Origin: Verrucomicrobiota bacterium
Lineage (GTDB): Bacteria; Verrucomicrobiota; Verrucomicrobiia; Chthoniobacterales; JAFAMB01
NCBI GenBank assembly: GCA_019247695.1
Contig: JAFBAP010000001.1
Location: forward strand, 1-32,258
Direction: 5' to 3'
Length of the DNA stretch: 32,258 nt
The notes under the pieces are model-generated. The model was given only the letters and a program-made list of their open reading frames with translations. It ran no database searches and was not told where the DNA came from. This document shows positions 1 to 32,258 of this stretch, one piece after another. Both the position numbers and the translations under genes were made by a program. How positions within the stretch are numbered: position 1 is the stretch's first letter; each line of letters opens with the position of its first letter.

Positions 1-77
1 ATGCCGCTCCGAACTCCGAACTCCGAACTCCGAACTCCGAACTCCGAACTCCGAACTCCGAACTCCGAACTCCGAAC
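1..77. repeat. Heptamer array, right part of composite element A
   Basis: Ten exact tandem copies of TCCGAAC occupy 8-77. The preceding bases (ATGCCGC) match the left flank of the same array near 20735 and 32064, so the window begins inside an element whose core lies outside it. Looser micro-repeats follow: CGCCGTG-like words at 90-110 and 178-197, and GGTGTCGGGTGTCGGG at 117-132. Reading frames through the array give only a seven-residue period and are not genes. Confidence 0.9.
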
Positions 78-224
78 TCTTTCCGCTTTCCGCCGTGGCG
101 CCGTGTGCTTCTGAGGGTGTCGGGTGTCGGGTAGATGCGGAGCTGCCGGCCAACCTCTCCCCCGCGGTGGCCGCCAAATCGCCGTGCCCGCCGTGTGACC
201 CTGTGGTACGCTGTCCTGGACACC

Positions 225-6300: not shown

Positions 6301-6470
6301 CAGAACCCGCGAGCGGCACCCTCTGCCGCCCCTTCAGCAAATCCAACCCGGCGGGGCGGGCGTTTGTTAGGGAGGGCGTACAGGCGTGACGCCTTAGGAG
6401 GGCTCGATCGTGATTTGACGGTTAACCAGGGTAAACCCTGGGCTATGGTCTAACGCCCCTTCGGGGCTGA
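6296..6470. repeat. REP-like palindromic repeat cluster 1
   Basis: This holds three parts that reappear in cluster 2 (10745-11067): a CAGAACCC(G/A)CGAGCG segment at about 6301-6315, the hairpin CCAGGG-TAAA-CCCTGG at 6426-6441, and the hairpin GCCCC-TTC-GGGGC at 6455-6467. The order GGGCTCGATCG, spacer, hairpin 1, GGGCTA, spacer, hairpin 2 is shared with 10835-10903. It lies downstream of the ATPase gene ending at 6615, so the hairpins could also protect or end that transcript. The family resembles REP-type repeats; no RAYT transposase is in view. The remaining bases up to 6614 show nothing I recognise. Confidence 0.8.
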
Positions 6471-10641: not shown

Positions 10642-10744
10642 ACGCCGGCTTGCAACTCGCTTGAGCCGTTCTTTCCCCCAGAAGGGCAGCCGGAGAGTAG
10701 CCCGGCACTGAAACGCGTCTTACAGCCCGCAGGGCCAGGAGAAC

Positions 10745-11067
10745 CTGGCACAGGGTTTACCCTGGGAAACCGGAAAATGACGATGAGCCCTGGAGGGGCG
10801 GAAGGCGTCGCTCGTGGGTTCTGCCGCCCCTTCAGGGCTCGATCGGGGGGGAGGACCCTACCCAGGGTAAACCCTGGGCTAAGTTCTCCTGGCCCTTCGG
10901 GCCGTAAGACGTGGGTAAAGCCTGGGCTAAGTGCTACCGCCCCGTCGGGCCTGCAAACGGCTCCGTCGACCGGTGCCGGTTTGAGACGAGGTCGCGGGTT
11001 CAGATCGGTTGATTCACAACAGACGTTAAAATCCCTGGCTACCATCAGTGGCCCCATCGGGGCATAG
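10745..11067. repeat. REP-like palindromic repeat cluster 2, inside the peptide operon
   Basis: Several related palindromes lie between the binding-protein and permease genes: CAGGG-TTTA-CCCTG (10751-10764, inverted relative to the others), CCCAGGG-TAAA-CCCTGGG (10861-10878), GGCCC-TTC-GGGCC (10891-10903), a diverged copy GGGTAAAGCCTGGGCTAAGT at 10913-10932, and GCCCC-ATC-GGGGC (11051-11063). The segment 10800-10840 contains the inverse of the CAGAACCC-type part seen at 6301. A 151-codon minus-strand open frame spans the cluster, but its protein is only the translated repeat (recurring LSPGFT) and I do not call it. The rest of 10642-11114 holds nothing else that I recognise. Confidence 0.85.
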
Positions 11068-18302: not shown

Positions 18303-18362
18303 ACGGCGCAGATTAGGCGAAAATACCTGGCCGGCAACCAGGGCTTTTTCGGCGGCAGTCAA

Positions 18363-18638
18363 ATGCCGCAAGCCGAAAAATGCCACAATGCCACAAATAA
18401 AAGAGGCGCCGGTCGGGACGCTGCTTCCTCAGACCGCACGGATGAGGAACCAAGGAGTATTTCACCGGTCCGGTGCAAGCAGCATGCCACAGGCGGGGAG
18501 CCGGTCATCCAGAGCAAGCTTCCGTTTCCGCCATTCTTGCACCGAGCCAATGCCACGCACCGGACAACCCGAAGCATGGCACCGGCAACGGACCTGCTGT
18601 CATTTATCGGATTCTTCCATTTGCGGCATCCGTGGCAT
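18363..18638. repeat. Cluster of ATGCCAC/GTGGCAT motifs upstream of gpmI
   Basis: The 7-mer ATGCCAC occurs at 18380-18386, 18388-18394, 18484-18490 and 18550-18556, and inverted at 18632-18638. One-base variants are at 18363-18369, 18576-18582 and 18623-18629. The region also has two hairpins: TTCCTCA/TGAGGAA (18425-18449, 11-nt loop) and CACCGG-T-CCGGTG (18463-18475). This fills the 339-nt gap between gpmI and the small basic protein gene, where no believable gene is present. A 117-codon frame crosses it but looks random. A regulatory RNA or protein-binding region is possible; I cannot name it. Confidence 0.55.
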
Positions 18639-18771: not shown

Positions 18772-20514
18772 TCACGCTTCCGCCGGTTCTAACTTCGCGC
18801 CGGCGCGCCGGGCTAACTCCACGTGAAACTGAGAGGGATGAGGTGCGGGACCGTTCTCGTGGGTGCGCCCCCAGTAAGCCGTGAAAGTTTCATCCGGCCG
18901 GCGTTGCTGCACGTATCCGGACAGCAGCTCGCGAACCTGCGCCGGGATATCTTCCTGATTCACCGTCTTCGCGTGCAGCCCGGCCAACCGGTCACCGGTG
19001 ATCGATCCGCCGACGTAGAGCGCGTATTTGCCCGGGGCGCGCCCGACGAAGGCGATGTCGGCGTTATAGGGCCGGGCGCACCCGTTGGGGCAGCCGGTCA
19101 TACGGATCAGGATCTGCTCATCGGACAGGGCGAGTTCCGACATCACCGCCTCGATCTGATCCAGAACCGCGGGGAACGCCCTCTCGCTCTCGGCAAGTGC
19201 CAGGCCGCACGTGGGCAACCCGACGCACGCCTGAGCCGTCTGGCGCATCGGCGTCAGCGTCGCAGGTTCCGGCACAGAATGGGCAGCGAGGATCCGGTCG
19301 ATTTCCGCGCGCTGTTCGGGTAAGACGTCTGCCAGGATCAAGTTGCAATTAGTCGTCAGCCGGACGGGCAGACGAAACCTTTCAACGATGGTGCGAAACG
19401 CGCTCCTATAATTTACGCCGTGCGCGTCGGCTACCCGCCCTTCCTGAACCCACACACCCCGGAACCAGCGGCCATCCCCCTGCGGGTGCCAGCCGAGCAT
19501 GTCGCCGACGGTGTCCCAGCGGACGCTCCTTGCCGGGGCGCTCTGCCCGGCAAAGCGTTTGCAGACTTCATCCCGGAACCAATCGATGCCTCGTTCGTCG
19601 ATGAGGTATTTCAAGCGGGCCCGTTTCCGGTCGGTGCGATTGCCGTAATCGCGTTGCACCAGCACCACCGCCAGGGCCACGTCAAGCGCTTGGTCGCGGG
19701 GAACGTAGAAAAGCGGTTTGGCGAGCGCAGGGTAGGTGTCGACCTTGCCGTGCGACATGCCGAAGCCGCCCCCGACGACTACCGTATAGCCGAGAACGCG
19801 GCCATCCGCCACGTGCGAAATAAAACCGAGGTCGTTTGAATAGACGTCAACGTCGTTTCTCGGGGGGATGGCGATCCCGATCTTGAATTTCCGCGGCAGG
19901 TAATGCTTCTCATAGACCGGGTCAGCCTCCGCCTCTTGGGCCGAAGCGGCTCCCGGGTCCAGCTTCTCACCGTCAAGCCAGATTTCGCTGTACGCCCGCG
20001 AACGGGCGAGAAATTTGCGGCTGAGCTCGTGCGCGAGGCGCTGCGCGTCCTCGTGAGCTTCATCCTTCAGCGGTGCAGCGGGCGCGATGGTATTCCGGAC
20101 GACGTCGCCGCAGCCGCCCCAGGTGGTGATGCCGCTCGCGTTGATTTGCTGAAGGCAACCCTTCAGATTGCCCTTCAAGACTCCATGGAGCTGAATGTCC
20201 TGACGCGTGGTGATGCGCAGGGTGCCGTTCCCGAGCTCGGCGGCAACGCGGTCGTGCTGGAGGTATTGCTCGGCCGTAAGGGCGCCGCCGGGGATTTTCG
20301 AGCGGATCATGAAAATCCACGCCTTGTCGAGGTGTTGCTGCTTACGAGCGATGCGCTGATCACGGTCGTCCTGCTGATAACTTCCGTGAAACTTCAGCAA
20401 CTGAGCCGCCTCTTCCGACACGTGGATGCTCGCGCCGTCCTGGATCTCCTCACGGAGTGAACCCCGGAGCCCGTTACTTTCGGCCTTGATTTCTTCGACG
20501 TTTTTGGCTGCCAT
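18772..20514 (-). CDS. cysI: Sulfite reductase hemoprotein (beta) subunit
   Basis: A 580-residue siroheme and [4Fe-4S] enzyme reducing sulfite to sulfide. The four cluster cysteines are Cys430 and Cys436 (ACVGLPTCGLA) and Cys475 and Cys479 (MTGCPNGCARP). Their spacing (6, 39, 4) equals that of E. coli CysI as I remember it. Other CysI-type stretches are FHGSYQQDDRD near residue 44, YAEIWLD-like YSEIWLDGEKL, YLPRKFKIGIAIPP and QRDYGNRTDRKRARLKYLID. This favours CysI over ferredoxin-dependent nitrite reductase. No CysJ flavoprotein or siroheme synthase is in the window, so the electron donor is unknown. It is divergent from a secreted-protein gene, with a heptamer element between. Confidence 0.93.
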   Translation of the reverse strand: MAAKNVEEIKAESNGLRGSLREEIQDGASIHVSEEAAQLLKFHGSYQQDDRDQRIARKQQHLDKAWIFMIRSKIPGGALTAEQYLQHDRVAAELGNGTLRITTRQDIQLHGVLKGNLKGCLQQINASGITTWGGCGDVVRNTIAPAAPLKDEAHEDAQRLAHELSRKFLARSRAYSEIWLDGEKLDPGAASAQEAEADPVYEKHYLPRKFKIGIAIPPRNDVDVYSNDLGFISHVADGRVLGYTVVVGGGFGMSHGKVDTYPALAKPLFYVPRDQALDVALAVVLVQRDYGNRTDRKRARLKYLIDERGIDWFRDEVCKRFAGQSAPARSVRWDTVGDMLGWHPQGDGRWFRGVWVQEGRVADAHGVNYRSAFRTIVERFRLPVRLTTNCNLILADVLPEQRAEIDRILAAHSVPEPATLTPMRQTAQACVGLPTCGLALAESERAFPAVLDQIEAVMSELALSDEQILIRMTGCPNGCARPYNADIAFVGRAPGKYALYVGGSITGDRLAGLHAKTVNQEDIPAQVRELLSGYVQQRRPDETFTAYWGRTHENGPAPHPSQFHVELARRAGAKLEPAEA

Positions 20515-20535
20515 TCTGAGCTGAGAAAGATAAAC

Positions 20536-20551
20536 TCGATAGACATATCGA
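20536..20551. promoter_or_regulatory. Palindrome upstream of cysI (possible operator)
   Basis: A perfect inverted repeat TCGATA-GACA-TATCGA ends 21 nt before the cysI start codon, in an AT-rich patch. Its position fits a repressor or activator site or a 5'-leader hairpin controlling sulfite reduction. No known regulator consensus is matched. Confidence 0.35.
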
Positions 20552-20575
20552 CTTTTCCCGCGGCCGCAACTAATA

Positions 20576-20935
20576 GTTCGGGGTTCGGGGTTCGGCGACG
20601 TCGTAGAACCGGGTCCGATCTCCCTCGAGGTGCACGCTCACCCGGCCGGAAAACGAAATGATTCGCAGAACACGCAGAAGAACGCAGAAAAAGATCCACG
20701 AAACCGGAGCTTGACACCGGCAGCTCGCCCCCATGCTGCCGCTCCGAACTCCGAACTCCGAACTCCGAACTCCGAACTCCGAACTCCGAACTCCGAACTC
20801 CGAACTCTTTCCCCTTCCCCTTCTTCCCGCCGTGTTCGCCGTGGCTCGCCGTGTTCGCCGTGTGAACTCAGTCGTTGTGCCCGCCGTGTGACCGAACTCC
20901 GAACTCGACACCCGGGGCCGGACACCCGACACTCC
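20576..20935. repeat. Composite heptamer element B
   Basis: Left array: three units of GTTCGG(G/C) at 20576-20596. Core: 20597-20742, containing CGAACCGGGTCCGATCTC-like sequence and a 9-nt-period part (TTCGCAGAACACGCAG and on) at 20661-20690. Right array: nine exact TCCGAAC units at 20743-20805, opposite in orientation to the left array. Right flank: CTTTCCCC, CGCCGTGTTCGCCGTGG-type micro-repeats to about 20890, then CACCCG(A/G)-type heptamers at 20917-20932. The core matches element D at 31930-32072 and in part element C. It fills the gap between cysI and the secreted-protein gene; frames through it are artefacts. Confidence 0.88.
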
Positions 20936-20955
20936 CTGCTGACCCGCTGTCGTTT

Positions 20956-21492
20956 ATGCGCTTGTGCATGCCGTGGATTCTCGTGCTAACAATCTGGCTC
21001 GCGGGCCGAGTTGCCGCCCAGAATTTTGCTCCCCAACAGATCAACCCGCCGTTCGGCTTTTACTGGGGTGAGACGGAGCAAGCCATCCAACAGCTAGTCA
21101 GCCGGGCCCAAGCCCGCGTTGTGGATCGGGCGGTGGTTAACGGCCGGGACACGTGGACGATCGAGGGGTTAATTCAACCGGCTTTGCGGCGGGCGATCAT
21201 TTATTTCGGCTCGGCCAAAACCCTGGTGGAGGTGGAACTGCAGTACGAGCACCCGGAATGGGACTTGGTCGCCTACGAGGAGTTCCTGAACAGCGCGCGC
21301 AAGCGGTTGGAAGCCAAATACGGGCCTCCGATCGTGCTGGCACGAGACAAGAAACCCGAAGGCGACATCATGGAGACGGTCGTAGGGTATCGGTGGCAGC
21401 AGGCATCGAGCAGCATCCAGCTGATCTTCTATTCGGCGCAGCGGAACAACGACGTTTACCGGACGGTGAGCATTCATTACCGCGCGGGTTAA
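20956..21492 (+). CDS. Secreted protein of unknown function
   Basis: A 178-residue protein with a clear Sec signal peptide (MRLCMPWILVLTIWLAG, then RVAAQ), so mature from about residue 23. The mature part is a small mixed alpha/beta domain with FGFYWGETEQAIQQLV, a central AIIYFGSAKTLVEVELQYE, and a final YRTVSIHYRAG. I recognise no family. The FYWG(E/M)T pattern recalls secreted proteins in which a short motif opens a repeat measuring domain, but that is not evidence of function. I start at ATG 20956 because the 27 codons before it translate repeat DNA and the signal peptide begins exactly there. It converges on the glycosyltransferase gene with a 38-nt gap. Confidence 0.8.
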   Translation: MRLCMPWILVLTIWLAGRVAAQNFAPQQINPPFGFYWGETEQAIQQLVSRAQARVVDRAVVNGRDTWTIEGLIQPALRRAIIYFGSAKTLVEVELQYEHPEWDLVAYEEFLNSARKRLEAKYGPPIVLARDKKPEGDIMETVVGYRWQQASSSIQLIFYSAQRNNDVYRTVSIHYRAG

Positions 21493-28805: not shown

Positions 28806-28973
28806 GTCGGGGGTCGGGGGTCGGGTGTCGAGTGTCGCGTCACAGGGCGGGAAGGCAGCATTATCCGCAGAACACGCAGAGAACGCAGAAAAGAGGAAAC
28901 ATCCACAGGTTACACAGATCAAGGGGCACACGACGGATATAGCGCATCTCTTACCCGACACCCGACACCCGGC
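28806..28973. repeat. Composite heptamer element C, with a different heptamer
   Basis: Left array: five 7-nt units GTCGGGG, GTCGGGG, GTCGGGT, GTCGAGT, GTCGCGT (28806-28840). Core: 28841-28952; its part 28841-28892 matches element D 31972-32026 nearly base for base and includes the 9-nt-period CCGCAGAACACGCAG stretch. Right array: ACCCGAC, ACCCGAC, ACCCGGC (28953-28973), inverted relative to the left. So the architecture is that of B and D while the heptamer is GTCGGGT rather than GTTCGGA. It occupies most of the 258-nt gap between the divergent SNF2 and parA genes. Confidence 0.85.
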
Positions 28974-29036
28974 ACTCTTCCTTGATTGCAGGGCTCGACT
29001 TCTCGGGCGAGATGCAGAACAAGATTGCATTTTCCG

Positions 29037-31809: not shown

Positions 31810-31810
31810 A

Positions 31811-32203
31811 CGGTCACACGGTCACACGGCGGGCACAACGTAAGAATTCACACGGCGAACACGGCGGGCCACGGCGAACACGGCGGGAAGAGGGGGAAAG
31901 AGTTCGGAGTTCGGGATTCGGAGCTCGGAGGCGTCGTCGAACCGGGTCCGATCTCCCGCGAGGGTCACGTTCACACGGTGGGAAGACAGAATAATCCGCA
32001 GAACACGCAGAGAACGCAGAAAAAAGTCCAAACACTGGACTTGACACTGGCAGGCGGTGCCCATGATGGCGCTCCGAACTCCGAACTCCGAACTCCGAAC
32101 TCCGAACTCCGAACCCCGAACCCCGAACCCCGAACCCCGAACCCCGAACCCCGAACCCCGAACCCCGAACCCCGAACCCCGAACCCCGAACCCCGAACCC
32201 CGA
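31811..32203. repeat. Composite heptamer element D, longest copy
   Basis: Left flank: CACGGCGAACACGGCGGG-type micro-repeats (31811-31899), the reverse complement of the right flank of element B. Left array: GTTCGGA, GTTCGGG, ATTCGGA, GCTCGGA (31902-31929). Core: 31930-32072, shared with B and, from 31972 to 32026, with C. Right array: six TCCGAAC (32073-32114) then twelve CCCGAAC (32115-32198) and a partial unit. On the minus strand the latter reads as GGGGTTC repeats. After it come TCGACACCCG and an unassigned end to 32258. No gene is present in 31810-32258; open frames here translate the repeats. Confidence 0.9.
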
Positions 32204-32258
32204 TCTCTACTCGACACCCGCTCAGTCATCGGCTGCGCGGAGCAGGTAAGCCGCCGCT

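Follow-up and report, generated by a model that had tools for sequence, protein, structure and literature searches.

Tandem repeats with a seven-nucleotide unit have been described in several bacterial groups. In two Xanthomonas genomes, 70 and 75 convergent heptamer pairs (GGGAATC), with an array on either strand, were reported, and heptamers were noted in Nostoc as well; of the two neighboring ORFs, the one 5' of the repeats is the nearer in Xanthomonas, regardless of its direction (Rehm, 2015; PMC4692102). Direct repeats of TAACTGA are found in Beggiatoaceae and in cyanobacteria (MacGregor, 2015; PMC4679880). In the account that this paper gives of Mrazek (2007), heptanucleotides rank first in abundance among long simple repeats in most genomes, and slippage is offered as a hypothesis. 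Heptamer families are also listed in the genome paper on Geobacter metallireducens (PMC2700814). Another group of dispersed sequences comprises the REP/REPIN elements with their RAYT transposases, which are GTAG- and CGTC-tagged and abundant in the verrucomicrobium O. terrae (PMC3733652).

Here, we analyze a heptamer-containing element, B, from a Verrucomicrobiota bacterium and show that it represents a modular, non-coding repeat with many copies dispersed over intergenic DNA.

Anatomy of the elements and of the full unit

The window, that is, the whole analyzed stretch of 32,258 nucleotides, belongs to a draft genome of 5.19 Mb in 191 contigs and contains four related elements, A-D, with all features given on the plus strand. 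A sequence-only reading of this DNA had proposed that B and D share one plan, opposed heptamer arrays around a common core. This plan is borne out: the two cores are 80% identical across 141 bp (E 1e-27). Element B (20576-20935) is located between divergent genes, a nitrite/sulphite reductase gene on the minus strand and an ORF without a Pfam match. Its left heptamer array (20576..20595, GTTCGGG x2.9), with the G-rich strand pointing inward, is followed by a core that belongs to the dispersed family (20599..20742, nhmmer E 1.4e-43). The core includes the 9-mer word CGCAGAACACGCAGAAGAACGCAGAAAA (20664..20691), the portion common to the congener. The right array consists of 9.4 units of CTCCGAA with 100% matches (20742..20807). 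It is followed by an outer right arm of CGCCGTG words (20815..20894), whose micro-repeats begin at 20828 and which shows 93% complementarity to D's outer left arm (31819-31898), and by an outermost layer of CGACACCC-type heptamers (20903..20934). No Rfam match was obtained for the B region (20400-21000, up to E 1).

Element D (31810-32215, near the window end) sits after a GHL10 glycosyl hydrolase-like gene, and its outer left arm begins at the stop codon of this gene (31810..31898, micro-repeats at 31850-31887). A degenerate left array (31900..31930), the core (31930..32072), and a right array in which 18.6 units are CTCCGAA and then CCCCGAA (32072..32203) complete it. Of element A, the contig start leaves a truncated unit with a right array of CTCCGAA x10.4 (7..79). 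Element C (28806..28975) follows the plan of B and D, but its arrays are made of GTGTCGG and CCCGACA, and its core is partial (28828-28892). With regard to G-quadruplex formation, a trait considered for the Xanthomonas type, the heptamer arrays contain only short G runs. A separate palindromic repeat (CCCAGGGTAAACCCTGGG...CCCCTTCGGG) occurs in the window in several copies and orientations (6407-6465, 10698-10949).

Comparison of 30 copies yields a full unit of about 500 bp, in which micro-repeats, a left array, a core of about 145 bp, a right array, and again micro-repeats follow each other. The layers are the outer words GTCACACGG and CACGGCG, a purine stretch, GTTCGGA heptamers, the core, TCCGAAC heptamers, and the outer words in reverse complement. 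The heptamers-core-heptamers layout of the sequence-only reading stands, but the full unit has micro-repeats at both ends, and it is B that is without an outer left arm. Some copies are enclosed by extra layers (GTGTCGG, GTAACGG, ATGCCACAA); the outer layers vary from copy to copy, with no constant outer end seen. The 9-mer words CACAGATTA and ATGCCACAA also recur as extra mosaic layers in spacers of both congeners, e.g., at 18360-18398 of the window.

The suggestion that opposed arrays fold into a long hairpin applies to a part of the family. The complete copy L058:3265-3800 forms a single long hairpin (z -15.7), and folding z values over 16 copies range from +1.3 to -25, with nine of the 16 below -5. 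However, single strands of B (z +1.37) and D (z -0.21) fold no better than shuffled sequences, and neither does the core alone (z +1.1). The two arms are unequal: right arrays are longer than left ones (median 9 vs 4 units, p 0.003) and have more perfect units (164/196 vs 42/91). Arms of the same copy match each other with a mean score of 92.9, compared with 100.0 for arms of different copies. Since belonging to one copy does not make two arms more alike, the arms are not maintained together as a stem, and co-evolution of hairpin arms was rejected.

The core is modular as well. Many matches to the core profile are partial and cover only model positions 1-95, 45-146, or 61-95, and a TTGACA..CATGAT module precedes CTCCGAA here and CCGTTAC in the congener. 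The modules are reshuffled between copies. In B, the equivalent TTGACA - 15 nt - CATGCT (20711..20737), immediately 5' of the right array, is at most weakly promoter-like; TTGACA-N15-CATGAT/CATGCT is present in most full copies, but its columns are not clearly more conserved than their neighbors, and a core promoter was set aside as a weak hint.

Distribution, polarity, and placement of the arrays

The sequence-only reading considered the shared core a dispersed element, a claim that a search returning just the few copies of the window would have refuted. With the D core as a query, the genome contains at least 40 scored matches (E <= 4e-26, 79-100% identity) and 283 first-look candidates. The copies have unrelated flanks, and many are located at contig ends. 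The core profile has 54 nhmmer matches in a DNA sample of 704 kb; since this sample was partly picked for containing copies, the number per genome is estimated at a few hundred. (CTCCGAA)x3 matches the genome 673 times (456 + 217) vs 0 for the reversed control, which excludes chance as the source of the arrays. Of 240 other sampled genomes of the phylum, three contain (CTCCGAA)x3. When 56 relatives were searched with the core at E 0.001, the congener G001 alone gave a match, and it is restricted to the 9-mer word region.

At least 118 stretches contain exact (CTCCGAA)x4 arrays; they belong to named genomes of Cyanobacteria, Omnitrophota, Nitrospirota, Deltaproteobacteria, Verrucomicrobia, Planctomycetes, Bacteroidota, Synergistota, Acidobacteria, and Gammaproteobacteria. 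Viral contigs have such an array in five stretches only (L260-L264). A period of seven dominates: 44 arrays in 388 kb have a score of at least 14, whereas none of the other periods between 4 and 13 exceeds three arrays. In the GTDB loci where a second array lies within 300 bp, the order from left to right is G-rich array, then C-rich array in 31 pairs vs 2, and the heptamers of the two arms differ in 29 of the 31 pairs that follow the rule. The same polarity is obeyed by all five opposed pairs in further stretches from three or four of these genomes and by 14 of 15 pairs in the own genome.

The G-rich strand runs into the intergenic space from a start close to the edge of an ORF. The array is nearer to the ORF on the 5' side of the G-rich strand in 81 GTDB loci vs 28, for start and stop alike, with a p value of 4e-7 that is optimistic because the loci were chosen by one heptamer, several of them belong to a single genome, and ORFs were called by length. 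The stop-free heptamer alone gives 40 vs 13 in these loci, and the gene-called sample of the own genome gives 27 vs 9. The tetramer AGTT is over-represented in the GTDB loci (12 of 72 distinct units, with about 3% expected by chance), an excess that carries little weight given the selection by one heptamer. These data suggest that what was reported for Xanthomonas, arrays that face each other and lie at ORF edges, applies to many phyla, with unequal arms.

In the gene-called sample of this genome, arrays are often within 20 bp of an ORF. The sequence-only reading had placed them twice between divergent genes, which is correct for B, but in the sample arrays favor convergent pairs (13/36 vs 29/165 intergenic spaces).

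Turnover in a congener and origin of the family

The congener G001 is a draft of 470 contigs, 86% complete, of which about 115 kb could be aligned with the present genome at about 84% identity. Of 32 diverged orthologous gaps, 10 contain words of the repeat vocabulary in the two genomes alike, four in the present genome alone, four in the congener alone, and 14 in neither. Gaps filled in both genomes contain mosaics of the same vocabulary that differ site by site. When only one genome is filled, the other spacer has unrelated sequence. At this level of identity, the comparison of filled and empty sites proposed earlier revealed neither a clean empty site nor a target-site duplication in the 32 gaps. 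Hairpins are not retained at orthologous sites.

The elements also coincide with changes in gene order. In the congener, the D site has the GHL10 gene next to the aldo-keto reductase gene, while here the two are apart, each beside its own copy of the repeat in contigs C1 and C129; the D copy (31810-32258) and the C129 copy (L002) have cores that are 99% identical. Either rearrangement or misassembly has occurred at this element. At the B site, the two flanks are found in different contigs of the congener, beside other genes. Since the two genomes are fragmented drafts with contig breaks at these repeats, such losses of synteny may be assembly errors. Assemblies, and perhaps synteny too, seem to be interrupted by this family, a point of relevance to the interpretation of genomes of this group.

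Two other observations concern the congener. In L038, L041, L043, and L045, a small palindromic insert (CCGCCGCA...GCGGCGGATC) is inserted into the word ATCCGCAGAACACGCAG at a single position, with apparent empty copies alongside, e.g., in L032. It is flanked on both sides by ATCCGC, similar to a 6-bp target duplication, a reading made ambiguous by the ends of the insert itself. In L122:7107-7210, a tandem ATGAGATAATTAAG array that is absent there in the present genome breaks an otherwise aligned region.

The best explanation of the family, which we favor somewhat over doubt, is a combination of arrays grown by slippage and cores spread by recombination or copying, tolerated at sites of low harm. 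Arrays would lengthen and shorten through strand slippage, with seven nucleotides as a favored unit. Cores and layers would be copied or exchanged among sites by ectopic recombination or gene conversion, with arrays and words serving as homology, and such exchange could produce different mosaics in one spacer of two congeners. The units would be tolerated chiefly where harm is small, i.e., at ORF edges and between convergent genes, and long hairpins would be a by-product of copies that happen to have both full arms. This account is supported by the 79-100% identity of dispersed cores, the partial core matches, the shuffling of arms, the dominance of period seven, the longer and purer right arrays, and the turnover between congeners. 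The gene split at the D site with its 99% identical cores and the separation of the B-site flanks in the congener were counted for recombination. Slippage alone predicts neither the polarity nor a near-identical core at dozens of sites.

Another scenario, one of those raised by the sequence-only reading, is that of a MITE, in which long terminal inverted repeats would bound a non-autonomous transposon dependent on a transposase encoded elsewhere. Intergenic dispersed copies with inverted arms, a conserved core, and very long stems in full copies resemble a MITE in form. The genome has two Y1 (IS200-type) transposase genes, which could provide the enzyme; however, no copy adjoins either of them (by the core model and a word search), in line with the earlier statement that no transposase is nearby, and one looks like a plain IS605-type TnpA adjoining a TnpB-like ORF. 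The variable outer ends, the orthologous gaps with neither a clean empty site nor a target duplication, and the shuffling of arms among copies also argue against a MITE. Transposition through an unrecognized enzyme may have contributed, and a MITE as such we consider unlikely.

The spacer hairpin might instead be a selected device, a bidirectional terminator or an mRNA stabilizer at gene ends. The enrichment between convergent genes, the frequent short distances to ORFs, and the copies that fold far better than shuffled sequences agree with such a role, and the very stable hairpin of some copies could be selected as a terminator or insulator. However, B, D, and other copies have no excess folding, orthologous sites do not keep the hairpin, and the placement may reflect mere tolerance. 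For the family, a selected role is quite improbable.

The strict polarity could be explained by oriented de novo addition, in which an enzyme or repair pathway would add seven-nucleotide units to 3' ends at spacer breaks, followed by joining. Addition of this kind would yield convergent G-rich arrays at ORF edges, similar to eukaryotic interstitial telomeric repeats. It would fit the 31 vs 2 pairs and the opposed pairs in stretches from other genomes, the different heptamers of most arms, and the proximity of ORFs to the 5' end of the G-rich strand regardless of gene direction, including the stop-free heptamer. However, units are not detectably younger at the 3' end of the G-rich strand: directional growth, apparent from worse 3' units, proved to be a phase bias of the last unit, with no significant difference once boundaries were symmetric. 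Moreover, a single, broken reverse transcriptase is all that this genome yielded, the 86% complete congener yielded none, Ku is absent from both congeners and present in six of seven other members of the bacterial family, and copies with the same core would require a separate copying process. The reverse transcriptase match lies in contig C164:16892-17523 (L313, L315) as two pieces, one with an internal TAG, and is apparently decayed. We consider oriented addition very improbable. The broader proposal, that many phyla share an unrecognized DNA process laying oriented heptamers at gap edges, with the G-rich strand inward and the arms independent, akin to telomere addition, and that its products became a dispersed family here, is a comparably long shot. 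RNA-templated spread via a resident reverse transcriptase and Ku-type end joining were rejected, as neither an intact reverse transcriptase nor Ku was found in either congener.

Relation to described repeats

In many surveyed bacteria, no other long simple repeats are as abundant as heptamer tandem repeats, and the literature that we found offers only the suggestion of polymerase slippage. If the polarity holds across phyla, a general mechanism would have to account for direction and not for length alone. Heterocystous cyanobacteria reportedly contain small dispersed repeats and heptameric STRRs, as Mazel in 1990 and Elhai in 2008 are said to have described. These small repeats are nested in heptamer arrays and form mosaics, as observed here, but they are 21-27 nt long, compared with the core of about 145 nt.

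The TAACTGA repeats are similar in being plentiful intergenic heptamer tandem repeats with a patchy distribution among distant lineages. However, they are direct repeats, located in the Beggiatoaceae genome mostly just 5' of start codons, and do not have opposed arrays with a core. REP/REPIN elements resemble the family as dispersed intergenic elements with inverted halves. Unlike them, the present family has no tagged palindrome of 20-40 bp that we could find, its core does not fold, and the Y1 genes are not flanked by copies.

The closest likeness is to Xanthomonas. Both have intergenic seven-nucleotide units, convergent G-rich paired arrays, and proximity to the ORF on the 5' side, and in both congeners keep the gene neighbors while the repeat sequence varies. 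The differences are the heptamers GTTCGGA, GTAACGG, and GTGTCGG, the layered arms of 9-mer words, the dispersed core of about 145 bp between the arrays, and the occurrence in other phyla. In summary, the kind of repeat, with its polarity and ORF placement, is already known from Xanthomonas, and what is new, within the literature searched, is the layering of the arms together with a dispersed core.
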